Shown one piece after another: positions 16,652-54,301 of a DNA stretch of 60,038 nt. The notes under the pieces were generated by a model. The model did no database searches. It worked only from the letters and a program-made list of their open reading frames with translations, and was not told the origin of the DNA. The position numbers were made by a program, and so were the translations under genes. Source of the stretch: Ruminococcus sp. (GTDB lineage Bacteria; Bacillota; Clostridia; Oscillospirales; Acutalibacteraceae); contig JAFTGC010000028.1 in NCBI GenBank assembly GCA_017458105.1, positions 1-60,038 of the forward strand, in the 5' to 3' direction. The first letter of the stretch is position 1. Every line of letters begins with the position of its first letter.

Positions 16652-16680
16652 ATTTTATCACATAATTTAACGCTTAGCAA
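16652..16680 (-). promoter_or_regulatory. Candidate promoter of cdaA-ybbR
   Basis: TTGCTA (16675-16680) and TAAAAT (16652-16657), 17 bases apart. The -35 box lies inside the 3' end of the cysteine desulfurase gene. The transcript would start near 16645 and favours the GTG start of cdaA. Confidence 0.6.
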
Positions 16681-17818
16681 GTAATTTAGGCGAGATGTTT
16701 TTAATTACATATATAAGCCTGTCAATTTCAAACCTGGTACTAAAAATTGACGGCACTACCCTTACTGTTCCGCTGTCGATTGTGTTCATAAATTTATGGG
16801 CAAACGGCGAGCAATGCAGACCGCCACGCACACATATTCCGTTATTATTTAGGACTCTTACAACCTCTTCGGAATGGATTTCGTCAATATTGAAAGACAA
16901 CACAGGAGCAGTTTTTTTAAACTCAAAGTTTTTATTATAGAGCTTGACAAAAGGCAGCTTACCGAGTTCATTATAAAGATGTTTTGCAAGGAAAAACTCG
17001 TGTTTATAGATATTCATTGTACCTCTTTTGCGTACAAAATCCACACCTGCACGAAGCCCTGCAATACCGTTAAGATTTTGTGTTCCGCTTTCAAAGCGTT
17101 CAGGAGGTTCATCGGGCTGCTGAGTATTAATTGAGTCTGTTCCTGTTCCTCCGAATAAAAGTGGTTTAAGCTCGGCATTGTTTATCAATAAAATTCCTGT
17201 TCCCATAGGTCCGTAAAGGCCTTTATGCCCAGATGTGCAGACAAAATCAAAGTCGCTGTTCTGCATATCTATTGGGAATACTCCTGCCGACTGAGCTGCA
17301 TCTATACATATTTTTATCCCGTAAAAATGGCACAAAGCACATATTCTTTCTATCGGGAATTTAAAACCAAAAACATTTGAAGCGTGCATACATACACATA
17401 ACTTTGTTTCAGGTTTGATTGCAGAACGAACATTGTCTATTATTTCATCAGGATCATCTGAATAATCAAAGACAGAGTAGCTTACACCTTTATTTTTAAG
17501 ATATTCCAGCGGTCTGACTACCGAATTATGCTCAAGAGATGAAATCACAACATGGTCGCCTTTTTTTAACATTCCAAAAATCACTGTATTAAGTGCCATT
17601 GTGCAGTTTAGCGTAAAAATTACATTGTCCTCTGAATTTGCATTAAAAAGTTTTTTTATTGATTTTCGACATTCATAAATTTCTGTGGCAGCCATAAGCG
17701 AAAGCCTGTGACCGCTGCGTCCGGGATTTGCACTGTACTTGTTGAAAGATTCGTTTACCTTCAGTTTTACCGACTGAGGCTTCGGAAAGGTTGTTGCACC
17801 GTTATCCAGATATATCAT
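16667..17818 (-). CDS. Cysteine desulfurase family protein (class V aminotransferase fold)
   Basis: A 383-residue PLP enzyme resembling SufS/Csd group II desulfurases, which take sulfur (or selenium) from cysteine (or selenocysteine). It opens IYLDNGATTFPKP. The PLP lysine is in TSGHKGLYGPMG, and the catalytic cysteine is in GICVRGGLHCSPFAH. It lacks the longer N-terminus of SufS. No sufU, iscU or suf genes are nearby. It overlaps a DUF3343 gene by four bases, and DUF3343 proteins have been proposed as sulfur/selenium carriers, so a small sulfur-transfer module is a reasonable inference. The exact acceptor is unknown. Confidence 0.85.
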   Translation of the reverse strand: MIYLDNGATTFPKPQSVKLKVNESFNKYSANPGRSGHRLSLMAATEIYECRKSIKKLFNANSEDNVIFTLNCTMALNTVIFGMLKKGDHVVISSLEHNSVVRPLEYLKNKGVSYSVFDYSDDPDEIIDNVRSAIKPETKLCVCMHASNVFGFKFPIERICALCHFYGIKICIDAAQSAGVFPIDMQNSDFDFVCTSGHKGLYGPMGTGILLINNAELKPLLFGGTGTDSINTQQPDEPPERFESGTQNLNGIAGLRAGVDFVRKRGTMNIYKHEFFLAKHLYNELGKLPFVKLYNKNFEFKKTAPVLSFNIDEIHSEEVVRVLNNNGICVRGGLHCSPFAHKFMNTIDSGTVRVVPSIFSTRFEIDRLIYVIKNISPKLLAKR

Positions 17819-50728: not shown

Positions 50729-52117
50729 TTATTTAACCTCGGCATATTCCAAAATAATATTTTCGTAAGAATCGCCGTTTTTGAGTGAACTAAGCATATC
50801 TTTTGCAGGGTTTGTCCGCTTTTCAAGTCTTTTGTAAAGCGGTTTTAAAAATTCTTCCTCACCGAAATTTCTCTGTTTAAGACCGTCATACGAGAGGTCA
50901 AGAACTGCCTTGACAAGCTCAAACAGCTTATTTTCATCTACAAACGAAGGCAGTTTGTCCTTTAAAAAGAGCTTTCTAAGCTCTGTTGCATTGTATCCGT
51001 TATGGTAAATCACAGTATCCTTATCGAGCAGCTCGGTAACTTTTTCAAGATTTTTCTTAATTCCTATATGAAATGCCGCAACCGTCATACTGTCTTTTAT
51101 AGGCTGACAGCAAACACTGCGAAACTCCACCGTTCCACGGAAAGTGACATCTTCAAATTTGAACGCCCTAAGGTAATCTATATCTTCAATTTTAGGTTCA
51201 AATGTGATTTGTTTATACTCGCCGTTTTCGTAATATTCACCCGTAACTTCTTTTTTGTTGAAATACTCGTTAATCTGAACAGGTGTAAAGTTGATGTACT
51301 TTTCACCACGCTCAACGCAATAGATGCTGGTTGTTTCAAGATAAGAAATTATCTCGTCAGCAGTTTCAAACTTGCAGTCATACATACCTATATTGTGGGG
51401 ATTAATTCCGTGAGTGCTGTTTTCCCAAAACATATCTCTGCAGCACAGCAAATCCTCGTGTTCTCCTACAAGCACAGAGTTTGAAAAAAGCAATGCCTTA
51501 ACAGGCTCAAGTTTTGAAAAGGTATTTATCATCGTTGGAAGTTTACCGTAATCCACATCAAGCTGTACCTGTGATGCACTTGAAAAGGTTCCGTACTCGG
51601 GATAGTTGTGAAATTGCATTGGTAAGTCAAGGTAATTTTTATATGAATTCAAATGGTGAAACAGCATACGGTATCTGCCGTTTGGAATAGGTACATTGTT
51701 ATTGTACTTTCGGTACGGATTCACTCCCATACCTGTGAGAGTGTAGTTGTATTTTTTGAACTGTTTTTGAAGAAATTCATAGTACATTATAAACCTTTCA
51801 TTAACTGCAAAGAGGTTAACCTCCTTGCCAAATGAAAACTCCAAATTATTGTACGAACAATCGTAAGAAAGAATATCTCCGTTTTGTTTATTTGATGATG
51901 AATATATATTGCCCTCATCATCTTTTCCAACAGGCAAAAAATTAAACTTTTCAATAAAATCGGCGTTTATACTGTGAACAACATCAAAATCCACTGCCTT
52001 TTTATTTAGGTTTACAATCGGAAGTTCAATCTCTACGCCGATATATTCTTTTTTATTATTTTTTGTTGGCTCAATAAACCGTTTATAAAGTTGTTCTCTC
52101 AATTGGTATATTTCCAT
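50729..52117 (-). CDS. Glutamate-cysteine ligase family protein (GCS2/EgtA-like)
   Basis: A 462-residue protein resembling the GCS2 family (plant-type and actinobacterial EgtA gamma-glutamylcysteine ligases). It has the N-terminal metal/glutamate motif EYIGVEIELPIVNLN and the central SSASQVQLDVDY, equivalent to the QVNLD block of that family. LLFSNSVLVGEHEDLLC and TVEFRSVCCQPIKDSMT are further family-like regions. The expected reaction is ATP-dependent joining of the glutamate gamma-carboxyl to an amine, but the acceptor need not be cysteine, because the same operon already encodes a GshA-type ligase. The start is ATG 52117 after AAGGAG. It lies ten bases after the amidotransferase gene and ends at a terminator. 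Confidence 0.78.
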   Translation of the reverse strand: MEIYQLREQLYKRFIEPTKNNKKEYIGVEIELPIVNLNKKAVDFDVVHSINADFIEKFNFLPVGKDDEGNIYSSSNKQNGDILSYDCSYNNLEFSFGKEVNLFAVNERFIMYYEFLQKQFKKYNYTLTGMGVNPYRKYNNNVPIPNGRYRMLFHHLNSYKNYLDLPMQFHNYPEYGTFSSASQVQLDVDYGKLPTMINTFSKLEPVKALLFSNSVLVGEHEDLLCCRDMFWENSTHGINPHNIGMYDCKFETADEIISYLETTSIYCVERGEKYINFTPVQINEYFNKKEVTGEYYENGEYKQITFEPKIEDIDYLRAFKFEDVTFRGTVEFRSVCCQPIKDSMTVAAFHIGIKKNLEKVTELLDKDTVIYHNGYNATELRKLFLKDKLPSFVDENKLFELVKAVLDLSYDGLKQRNFGEEEFLKPLYKRLEKRTNPAKDMLSSLKNGDSYENIILEYAEVK

Positions 52118-52127
52118 AAATGACTCC

Positions 52128-52901
52128 TTACAAATCGGCAAAAATCTGATACAGATATTTTAGAGATTCCTCGTTATCGAAGAATTCATTCCTGTGGTTT
52201 GTTCCCTTAAAGGCAAGTTTTCCGTTTTTAAATGCGTGAAGTGTTGTAAGCGGCAATTTTCGCCAACCCTCGTCGTTTAACGGAAGTGTTGAAAAAAGCA
52301 TTCCGCCGTCTGTTTCAAGGTAATGCAGTGAACCAAAATAATTGCTGTGTGCATACATATATTCACCGTCAAAAATCAGCAGATTAAGCTTATTACCCTT
52401 TGCCATATCGCATACAATGCTGTCGAGCAAATCAAACCTTTCTTCAGGGTCAAGCGGTCTGCCTATTGCCTTCTGCTGTGTATTTATCTGTTCTATAATA
52501 TACAAAAGTATGCGTTCACTGTCGGTGTCGCCCTTTTGTTTTTTAAAAAATTTATCAAGCGGACTGTATTCAAAAATTGTGCCGTTATGTATCATAGTCC
52601 ATCGTCTTGACCGATTGTCAAATTTTGAATAAGGATGGCAATTACGGTATTCGACATTACCGATAGTTGCATACCTTATATGAGCCATAGCCGTTTTAAC
52701 AATAATTTGATGCGAAAGCCTATTTTTGAGATACAAACTTTTTGACGCCTGAACGGGTTCCTTTTCAACTGATACATTATTACCGTCAGCAATAGCAAGA
52801 CCCCAGCCGTGAGGATGGTTAGGACTGTGGCTGAAAAAAACTTTAAGATATTCGTTTATCTGTTGTTCTTTATGCAGGTTTGCTGCAAAAATTTCGCACA
52901 T
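52128..52901 (-). CDS. Class II glutamine amidotransferase family protein (EgtC/YafJ-like)
   Basis: A 257-residue Ntn-type protein with the catalytic cysteine directly after the initiator Met (MCEIFAANLH), so Met removal should activate it. Conserved substrate-pocket parts are NHPHGWGLAIADG, AMAHIRYATIGNVEYRNCHP, TMIHNGTIFEYSP and KGDTDSERILLYI. Relatives include YafJ and EgtC, the latter of which hydrolyses a gamma-glutamyl bond in ergothioneine synthesis. There is no synthase domain, so it probably acts as a stand-alone gamma-glutamyl hydrolase or transferase. It overlaps the gshA-type gene by 46 bases, which implies tight coupling. Confidence 0.82.
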   Translation of the reverse strand: MCEIFAANLHKEQQINEYLKVFFSHSPNHPHGWGLAIADGNNVSVEKEPVQASKSLYLKNRLSHQIIVKTAMAHIRYATIGNVEYRNCHPYSKFDNRSRRWTMIHNGTIFEYSPLDKFFKKQKGDTDSERILLYIIEQINTQQKAIGRPLDPEERFDLLDSIVCDMAKGNKLNLLIFDGEYMYAHSNYFGSLHYLETDGGMLFSTLPLNDEGWRKLPLTTLHAFKNGKLAFKGTNHRNEFFDNEESLKYLYQIFADL

Positions 52902-54196
52902 TCGACATCCCCCTCCTCATCAATAAAGTCAGCATATTTTTTAGCTGATTCAATGCCTTTATTTACATAATCAGTGCCGAACTTTTCTTTTACGATTTCG
53001 GCATAACGGTAATTTTTATTTTGAATTTTTTTCTTTTGATACTCTATTACTTCCAGTGCATACTGCTCGTTTTGCTGCAAAAAGAATTCTTCCATTTTAG
53101 AAATTTCACGCTCGGCGGCAACCCTTAAAGATATAATTTCTCCCGATATATCGACAAAGTTGTTTTCATCATCAAACTGTGCCGCACTCATAACATTTTT
53201 TACTGCGGCAACCTGCTCTTCCTCGACAAACTCAAAATCATCAATCGACATAAGATAAAGAATTAAAATATGTAAAAATTTTATATCTTCCTTCATAATA
53301 CCGACTTCCGAAAGCGGATTGAGGTCAAGTGTACGCAGTTCAATGTGGTTTACACCTGTATCAGCGAGATTTTCAAGCGAGTTTTCACCCTTTGGTTTGA
53401 GTCTTATAGGATAATAAAGTTCGGAAACCGAACGGAGTTTTCCGCTGCAAACATAGCTGTTTATACTATCGGTATATTCCTTCAGGCTGCCGTACTTAAG
53501 CGTTGGAATGAAATTGTTCCAGTACCCGATTTTACTGCACCTTGCCGAAGAAAAAGGTGTAATAACATCCTTGCCTATTGCCAAATCATCCAAAAACGAA
53601 CCGTCCATAACAGGGCTTGCAGCCGTTAAATAAACTACAAGCCAACTATATTTAGTTATTTTTTTGGCAAGTTCAAGATAAAGATCGTTTTTGAATTCTC
53701 CAAAAGAATTATAATCACTATTTTCAAAGACATATTCGATTAACTCATCATCAAAAGAAAAGTTGAAGTGAATACCCGAAAACAACATCTTTTTTTTGCC
53801 GTATTTTTCAGCAAGATATTCACGGTAAATTTCTTTGTTTTTTAATTTACCGTAGTAACTCGCAATCGGAATATCACCGTCGCCCTTGACAAAAGGAGGG
53901 TTTGAAAACTGCCAAAGAAGCTCCTTACCTGTTTCCAAAACACTTAACTCTCTTACAACTTTTTTGTGCAGAGCAGAAAGTTCGTCATAAACCGTATCGG
54001 GTGAATTACAAACATTGGTCACAATTTCAACCTGATTCTCACAGAAATCACGGTCAATGTTAGGGTTATTTAAAAAAGGATGGCTCGTGTGGGAAAGATA
54101 ACCGTTTTCGTCAATACGCAGGCTCTCTTTTTCGATACCGAAAAATCCTTTGTACATATTCTCTTTTACATACGCATTTTCAAAATTGAATCCCAT
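52856..54196 (-). CDS. gshA: Glutamate-cysteine ligase (GshA / GshAB N-terminal type)
   Basis: A 446-residue enzyme expected to form gamma-glutamylcysteine from glutamate, cysteine and ATP. The family hallmark is GFFGIEKESLRIDENG near the N-terminus, then DFCENQVEIVTN, SGIHFNFSF, HIELRTLDLNPLSEVGI. Its length matches the ligase part of the fused Gram-positive GshAB, but the ATP-grasp glutathione synthetase half is absent and no gshB is seen nearby. The final product may therefore be gamma-glutamylcysteine itself or a different thiol. The start is ATG 54196 (MGFNFENAYV), after AAGGGTGA. A promoter with an operator-like palindrome lies just upstream. Confidence 0.9.
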   Translation of the reverse strand: MGFNFENAYVKENMYKGFFGIEKESLRIDENGYLSHTSHPFLNNPNIDRDFCENQVEIVTNVCNSPDTVYDELSALHKKVVRELSVLETGKELLWQFSNPPFVKGDGDIPIASYYGKLKNKEIYREYLAEKYGKKKMLFSGIHFNFSFDDELIEYVFENSDYNSFGEFKNDLYLELAKKITKYSWLVVYLTAASPVMDGSFLDDLAIGKDVITPFSSARCSKIGYWNNFIPTLKYGSLKEYTDSINSYVCSGKLRSVSELYYPIRLKPKGENSLENLADTGVNHIELRTLDLNPLSEVGIMKEDIKFLHILILYLMSIDDFEFVEEEQVAAVKNVMSAAQFDDENNFVDISGEIISLRVAAEREISKMEEFFLQQNEQYALEVIEYQKKKIQNKNYRYAEIVKEKFGTDYVNKGIESAKKYADFIDEEGDVECAKFLQQTCIKNNR

Positions 54197-54246
54197 AAAA
54201 TCACCCTTTTGATGTTTATGCCACTGAGCCAAAAATTATAATACCT

Positions 54247-54273
54247 TATAACCTATTGTATTTATAGGTTATA
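54247..54273 (-). promoter_or_regulatory. Operator-like inverted repeat at the gshA-type promoter
   Basis: Perfect 10-bp inverted repeat TATAACCTAT-N7-ATAGGTTATA. It abuts the -10 box and covers the predicted transcription start (about 54266). CC/GG-containing palindromes of this size suit Rrf2-type dimers. A nine-of-ten match to one arm occurs upstream of the rrf2 gene. Confidence 0.6.
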
Positions 54274-54301
54274 TGATACTCTCATAAACTTCATTTGTCA
54301 A
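54273..54301 (-). promoter_or_regulatory. Promoter of the gamma-glutamyl operon
   Basis: TTGACA (54296-54301) and TATCAT (54273-54278) with a 17-base spacer. It lies between rrf2 and gshA, so the operon can be controlled separately from the regulator. Confidence 0.8.

Follow-up and report, generated by a model that had tools for sequence, protein, structure and literature searches.

In a 60,038-nucleotide stretch of a Ruminococcus sp. genome (contig JAFTGC010000028.1; hereafter the window), three consecutive genes encode a GshA/GshF-like ligase, a protein with the class II glutamine amidotransferase fold and a GCS2-family ligase, here called GSHA, GAT and GCS2 (Table 1). An initial annotation of this DNA had described them as two glutamate-cysteine ligase families around an EgtC-like amidotransferase with Cys2, coupled by a 46-base overlap and then a ten-base gap, in an operon between one promoter and one terminator. 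This layout is borne out: the three genes are present on the minus strand and their families are matched by profile, and from ATG starts GSHA and GAT share bases 52856-52901, while the ten bases 52118-52127 separate GAT from GCS2. A promoter-like site and a terminator-like hairpin enclose the genes; promoter-like sites as a class show no excess in the window (19, against a mean of 18.5 in shuffles). The hairpin, with a seven-U run at its 3' end, was found by folding, none of 200 shuffles being equally stable, and was not listed by a terminator scan limited to small loops. Control by a riboswitch or T-box was rejected, as Rfam at gathering level gave no match in the window and, in eight relative loci, only a NiCo riboswitch far from the cassette (L021:9352-9435, minus strand, 60 bits). 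A plasmid location was likewise rejected, no PLSDB record matching GCS2.

Table 1. Coordinates of the cassette and of the features next to it in the window
Feature	Position	Strand	Description
GSHA	54196-52856	-	446 aa, ATG start; mechanically called open reading frame (ORF) opens at TTG 54232
GAT	52901-52128	-	257 aa, catalytic Cys2; predicted free-standing hydrolase of class II glutamine amidotransferase fold
GCS2	52117-50729	-	462 aa, ATG start; mechanically called ORF opens at TTG 52141; predicted plant-type GCS2-family carboxylate-amine ligase
Promoter-like site TTGACA-17-TATCAT	54301-54273	-	11/12 consensus matches
Predicted Rrf2-type operator CCTAT-N7-ATAGG	54252-54268	not assigned	just downstream of the -10 box
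Rrf2-family regulator gene (CymR/IscR-like)	54816-54379	-	directly upstream of the operon, same strand; probable regulator
Terminator-like hairpin with U run	50720-50675	-	follows GCS2; minimum free energy -22 kcal/mol, z -5.6

Protein families of the cassette

GSHA matches PF04262 (E 1.4e-70) and, over the N-terminal part of the model, GshF (E 7.4e-95), its scores lying below the NCBIfam full-length cut-offs at 318.9 vs 425 for GshF, whose model extends over an ATP-grasp half that GSHA lacks, and 157.6 vs 393.3 for GshA. The 14 positions that we take to be the metal, glutamate and cysteine sites of the Escherichia coli enzyme are identical in 29/29 aligned GSHA proteins, cysteine pocket included; of three further E. 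coli positions, the consensus agrees at E298 and departs at I146 and D238. GSHA thus resembles a GshA/GshF-type glutamate-cysteine ligase and would make gamma-Glu-Cys. The glutathione synthetase GshB (PF02955), missing from the locus according to the initial annotation, has no match in the whole genome assembly (83.6% complete), and among 26 carrier genome handles, of which G003 and G729 are apparently the same genome, 22 have no match at E 0.001 and two (G302 and G727) have one over the cut-off, so that the GSHA product should be gamma-Glu-Cys. Since PF02955 also matches in Bacillus subtilis, the matches in these two may be other ATP-grasp enzymes; GshF-like proteins were met in G607 and G719, both outside the 26-handle set. 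The EgtD model (PF10017) matches nothing in the same assembly and 0/26 of the carrier handles. On these counts, the glutathione pathway and the ergothioneine pathway as such were both rejected. A second GSHA gene (L125:3698-4993), away from the cassette and with a downstream neighbour resembling chemotaxis receptors, was seen in the Eubacterium oxidoreducens genome (G724:C23), and G711 has two GSHA copies too.

GAT matches PF13230 (E 2.8e-29), has the catalytic Cys2 and, as in EgtC, consists of a free-standing class II fold. The EgtC model TIGR03442 is its best NCBIfam match, at 51.3 vs a cut-off of 218.65, and matches 30/30 family members below that cut-off; by structure, EgtC and 1te5 tie as its match. 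The protein is probably a gamma-glutamyl amide hydrolase of the Dug3/EgtC type, and would hydrolyse its substrate instead of supplying ammonia. Its partners vary, as would be expected of a common hydrolase: besides genomes with both ligases, GAT occurs with GSHA and without GCS2 in G609, where the two genes are on different contigs, and with GCS2 in G713, G714, G715, G720 and G721, where no GSHA was found. In the genome sets searched, at least one ligase always accompanies it.

GCS2 of the window has no Pfam GCS2 match of its own, and the plant-type glutamate-cysteine ligase (GCL) model TIGR01436 is the sole ligase model to match it at E up to 1 (E 4.1e-14, below cut-off). This model matches 25/25 aligned relatives at E 0.001, 14 of which also match Pfam GCS2 (E up to 1; best 1.7e-8). 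Membership in the GCS2 family (PF04107/TIGR01436) is further indicated by the fold and by conserved acidic and arginine residues. The protein carries an invariant DCSYNNxE segment; identity to the plant-type GCL 2gwc is 19%. As the TIGR01436 cut-off is missed, the protein is not filed here as a plant-type GCL by function. Two unusual copies were recorded, one broken across two frames with stops inside (G002:C24:18776-20157, L004/L013), the other a distant homologue (L106:7411-8682; 33% identity) that reads ELSYNTIE in this segment and stands by itself behind a cluster of ribosomal protein genes; its genome encodes a GshF-like enzyme as well.

Conservation and distribution

Relatives were drawn with one genome per species; of 568 candidate stretches, 478 encode a GCS2 relative, and the analysis went on with the best 80, so that the locus counts describe the closest relatives. 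Linkage was scored by tblastn above 60 bits within 6 kb, many contigs being short. All three genes fall within this distance in 66/80 GCS2 loci and GAT lies near GCS2 in 76/80, the order being GSHA-GAT-GCS2 in 62 loci, GAT-GCS2-GSHA in 4 and GAT-GCS2 in 10, with GCS2 alone in 4. Elsewhere, GCS2-GSHA-GAT is found in L111 and, with one opposed gene between, in L114, and GCS2 is divergent from GSHA-GAT in L112. In a FastTree phylogeny of GCS2, drawn without support values, loci with the GAT-GCS2-GSHA order are spread over separate branches, which indicates rearrangement of genes that nonetheless stayed near each other; linkage and reordered arrangements together rule out chance adjacency. Covarying intergene distances (Spearman 0.78-0.84, 68 loci and the window) were dropped as independent proof, since shared ancestry alone predicts them. 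Conservation of the three genes together and intact active sites were the points on which the initial annotation had let its proposal stand or fall; the linkage just described and the catalytic positions checked, which are intact, speak for it on both.

In the genus, GCS2 is present in 12/24 genomes, and in other families of the order in 0/15; wider draws found it in 6/295 genomes of the order and 8/398 of the phylum (three of the 8 weak and partial), so that it is rare. With G280 added to the genus set (25 genomes), the 12 GCS2 genomes include all 10 that have GAT (Fisher p 2e-5) and 8/9 that have GSHA (p 0.004), both values being uncorrected for relatedness. Searched with both profiles, 36 genomes yielded GAT (E below 1e-80) in 15 and GSHA (E below 1e-100) in 15. 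For the 14 loci without a nearby GSHA, a genome search (16 handles, two of them added positives; mostly drafts) had four outcomes: GSHA of the cassette type at another place (6), a GshF-like gene (1), a fragment of 39 residues (1) and no match (6); in L119, L120 and L122, from this group, GSHA and GAT stand together on another contig. In G607, a GshF-like protein of 755 residues is encoded apart from a distant GCS2 (33% identity), which lies behind a ribosomal cluster. The cassette is also present in a cultured species, E. oxidoreducens DSM 3217 (L059).

Cysteine genes and an operator-like palindrome

Neighbouring genes were clustered, and one representative per cluster was checked against NCBIfam. 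Among the 80 loci, the neighbours include CysK (19), MetY (20), SufS/IscS (13), serine acetyltransferase (SAT, 10), NifU/IscU (9), PatB (7), LuxS (7) and Rrf2 (20), and at least one of seven sulfur families occurs in 35/62 loci over 8 kb. Counted by distance over ORFs of 120 aa or more, the seven cysteine/sulfur families make up 44/256 ORFs at less than 2 kb, 30/228 at 2-5 kb and 20/211 at 5-10 kb (nearest vs farthest, p 0.02). In the window itself they account for 1/53 ORFs, a cysteine desulfurase-like gene at 16670-17818. By its genomic company, the cassette is to be placed with cysteine metabolism. In L027, L031 and L118, the cassette, GCS2 or GSHA is part of a more extensive sulfur island, where HydE, NadA and LarE are among the genes; the L031 island also holds a JAMM-type protease and a MoaD/ThiS-MoeB fusion, suggestive of a thiocarboxylate sulfur-transfer route.

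Genes for M20-type metallo-hydrolases adjoin GCS2 at L105:9353-10531, L113:9066-10169, L030:3304-4422 and, on the other strand, L017:2382-3608. The M20-type gene lies directly upstream of GCS2 in both genomes with GCS2 only, G049 (L113) and G680 (L105), and between GAT and GCS2 in L030; no such gene was detected by blast next to the distant GCS2 genes L106-L108 or in the remaining loci. As a lead only, noticed post hoc, another hydrolase of this type might take the place of GAT.

The stretch from the -10 box to GSHA contains the palindrome AACCTAT-N7-ATAGGTT, and the pattern CCTA[AT]-N4..8-[AT]TAGG occurs just once in the window, at this site. When upstream regions of ORFs were scanned across the loci for CCTAT-N7-ATAGG with at most one mismatch (summarised as CCTAY-N7-ATAGG), the palindrome preceded the first cassette gene in 28/77 loci with enough upstream sequence vs 8/726 ORFs of other families (p 3e-24). 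A stricter count, which drops five matches ending in ATATG and takes as controls ORFs of at least 200 aa with at least 80 free upstream bases, a limit lacking in the first control, lowered the contrast yet kept it (23/77 vs 3/225, p 2e-12); as the loci are related, all these p values are too small. The palindrome follows whichever gene leads, namely GAT in L064, L098, L099 and L100 and GCS2 in L054. It also precedes CysK (10/26), Rrf2 (13/26), SufS/IscS (9/15) and PatB (3/11), and was found before none of the NadA (0/12), IscU (0/9) or TcdA-like (0/9) genes. A spacing of 8 shows no excess. Most cases of spacing 6 belong to Rrf2 and SufS/IscS genes; this version, CCTAT-N6-ATAGG, stands upstream of them in L050, L056, L057 and L102 and may be bound by another Rrf2 regulator, one of the IscR-like kind. 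The Rrf2 protein of the window (PF02082, E 9.8e-38) matches the CymR and IscR models at 1.8e-35 and 2.0e-34, both below cut-off, and 14/80 loci encode a relative no more than 4.5 kb from GCS2. The Rrf2 protein is the probable binder of the palindrome.

A possible gamma-glutamyl cycle and its alternatives

From the gene set, its conservation, the intact checked positions, the cysteine-gene context and the shared operator-like sites, we infer a set of reactions, with an acceptor for GCS2 among them, that would amount to a cysteine-regulated gamma-glutamyl cycle, a proposal to which we attach an even chance. GSHA would join the gamma-carboxyl of glutamate to cysteine and, lacking GshB, the route would stop at gamma-Glu-Cys; GCS2, a second ligase of the GCS fold, would use a sulfur amino acid or a related amine to form a different gamma-glutamyl product, or would likewise make gamma-Glu-Cys but in different conditions; and GAT would hydrolyse the gamma-glutamyl amide to glutamate and the free amino acid. 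With the CymR/IscR-like Rrf2 regulator bound to the promoter palindrome, these steps may form a store-and-release loop tied to cysteine supply. For a cassette that appears to belong to a cysteine regulon, the most economical interpretation is storage: cysteine, and by way of GCS2 perhaps one more amino acid, would be kept in gamma-glutamyl peptides, from which GAT would set it free. These bacteria, in which no glutathione synthetase was detected, may thus run a thiol economy resembling that of glutathione. EgtC removes the gamma-glutamyl group in ergothioneine synthesis. Passages of PMC6154287 name EgtC an amidohydrolase and EgtA the maker of gamma-Glu-Cys; passages of PMC7617739 report that deletions of yeast dug2 and dug3, like that of the transpeptidase Ecm38p, impair the use of gamma-Glu-Met, and PMC6508711 that the Dug2p-Dug3p complex can pass the gamma-glutamyl group to other amines. 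The nearest studied relatives of GAT by fold or kind thus act on gamma-glutamyl amides, and offer a precedent for its predicted hydrolysis.

Several observations weigh against such a cycle. Single ligases occur in several genomes, so that the cycle cannot be an obligatory one: in G009, the neighbourhood (L117) resembles L014 except that GSHA is its sole cassette gene, G369 has GSHA (E 4.7e-103) with neither GAT nor GCS2, GCS2 is found without GSHA and GAT in G049 and G680, and a distant GCS2 stands alone in G332 and G450. Copies with internal stops are found for GSHA (G017, G717) and for GCS2 (G002, G005). In the window, the Rrf2 gene adjoins the cassette and no cysteine enzyme gene does; across the loci, 49/77 cassette starts are without the palindrome at up to one mismatch, 5/28 matches end in ATATG and perhaps include start codons, and the palindrome is found before only 1/22 MetY and 0/11 SAT genes. 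GCS2 scores 51.9 vs the TIGR01436 equivalog cut-off of 463.15, and plant GCL carries GQFE where NNxE aligns in GCS2; this difference, the low score and the coexistence with a full ligase together imply that the acceptor of GCS2 may not be cysteine.

The alternatives differ mainly in what GAT does. In the protect-and-deprotect biosynthesis, gamma-Glu-Cys or the GCS2 product would be the handle on which some unknown low-molecular-weight thiol or amide is built, GAT removing the gamma-glutamyl group last as EgtC does; this would account for two ligases, and it is consistent with the likeness of the whole GAT family to EgtC in profile, with its structural tie between EgtC and 1te5 and with the PatB C-S lyase in 7/80 loci. 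We nevertheless regard it as rather unlikely, because no constant builder enzyme appears, the commonest other neighbour cluster being Rrf2 (23 clustered loci, many contigs short), because EgtD is found in 0/26 carrier handles and because the three genes are not obligatorily together. With ligases and hydrolase found apart, a make-and-release cycle fits at least as well as this linear scheme. The specifically ergothioneine-like logic drawn in the initial annotation is not supported, since the third protein matches the plant-type GCL model alone, EgtD is not found and the surrounding genes are those of cysteine assimilation; what stands of its interpretation are the two ligase families with an EgtC-like hydrolase, conserved, with checked positions intact and no GshB match. 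Were GAT instead a glutaminase subunit of GCS2, the pair making an amide with ammonia from glutamine, its fold would be explained and so would its nearness to GCS2 in 76/80 loci; a synthase supplied by a class II domain is, however, usually fused with that domain, and G609, with GAT and GSHA and no GCS2 match, and G049 and G680, with GCS2 and no GAT, make this reading improbable.

In a salvage scheme, GAT would process glutathione or plant gamma-glutamyl peptides brought in from outside, and the ligases would simply share its regulation. The scheme draws on the Dug3 precedent, on transporter genes near some copies and on the rumen being named in the record titles of several relatives, RUG presumably denoting the rumen; two ligases working in the opposite direction within the same gene set, and ABC ATPase genes in only 18/80 loci, leave it with little probability. 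A role of GCS2 in place of GshB, by addition of an amine to the carboxyl of gamma-Glu-Cys to give a glutathione analogue, would fit the missing GshB match and the varied acceptors of GCS-fold ligases, but these ligases activate the gamma-carboxyl of glutamate and GCS2 is present without a GSHA match in G049 and G680, so that we hold this last alternative to be very improbable. A bolder proposal, possible if still doubtful, is that Clostridia build their own low-molecular-weight thiol from gamma-Glu-Cys: GSHA and GCS2 would make a doubly ligated or modified gamma-glutamyl thiol, GAT would trim it and the Rrf2 protein would be its cysteine regulator. If true, anaerobes without a detected glutathione synthetase would have a dedicated thiol or cysteine reservoir.

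To our knowledge, the small thiols of rumen and other Clostridia are poorly settled, and many of these bacteria have no recognisable glutathione genes. Many Clostridia, rumen ones included, carry the cassette, and its conserved, apparently cysteine-regulated form in the cultured E. oxidoreducens DSM 3217 makes the thiol question directly testable. The cassette also suggests a function for two groups of proteins, namely a GCS2 subfamily whose scores fall short of the curated cut-offs for ligases and a set of free-standing proteins with the class II amidotransferase fold. Each kind of protein is known, whereas the combination, the Rrf2-type operator and the spread in Clostridia appear undescribed in open-licence PMC, the literature searched, where the portions seen, of PMC7730936 among others, yielded no description of the three-gene set.

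Compared with known systems, the cassette differs from mycobacterial EgtA/EgtC of ergothioneine synthesis in that EgtD is not found (0/26), the GCS2 match is plant-type, a GshA-type ligase is added and the context is one of cysteine genes. CymR and IscR govern the cysteine and Fe-S regulons of Firmicutes; shared with these are the nearby Rrf2 gene and a palindrome common to CysK, Rrf2 and SufS/IscS, while the operator here is a candidate and a ligase-hydrolase cassette was not found as a regulon member in the open-licence PMC literature. GSHA matches the ligase half of GshF best and keeps the 14/14 listed residues of GshA, here without the ATP-grasp half. Dug2, which we take to be of the M20 kind, recalls the M20-type genes that adjoin GCS2 in L030, L105 and L113; here, a Dug2-like partner is not constant and the ligases belong to the same operon. 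By kind of enzyme, GAT is likened to the yeast Dug2p-Dug3p complex, an amidotransferase-type complex that, according to passages of PMC7617739, is used on gamma-glutamyl peptides including gamma-Glu-Met.

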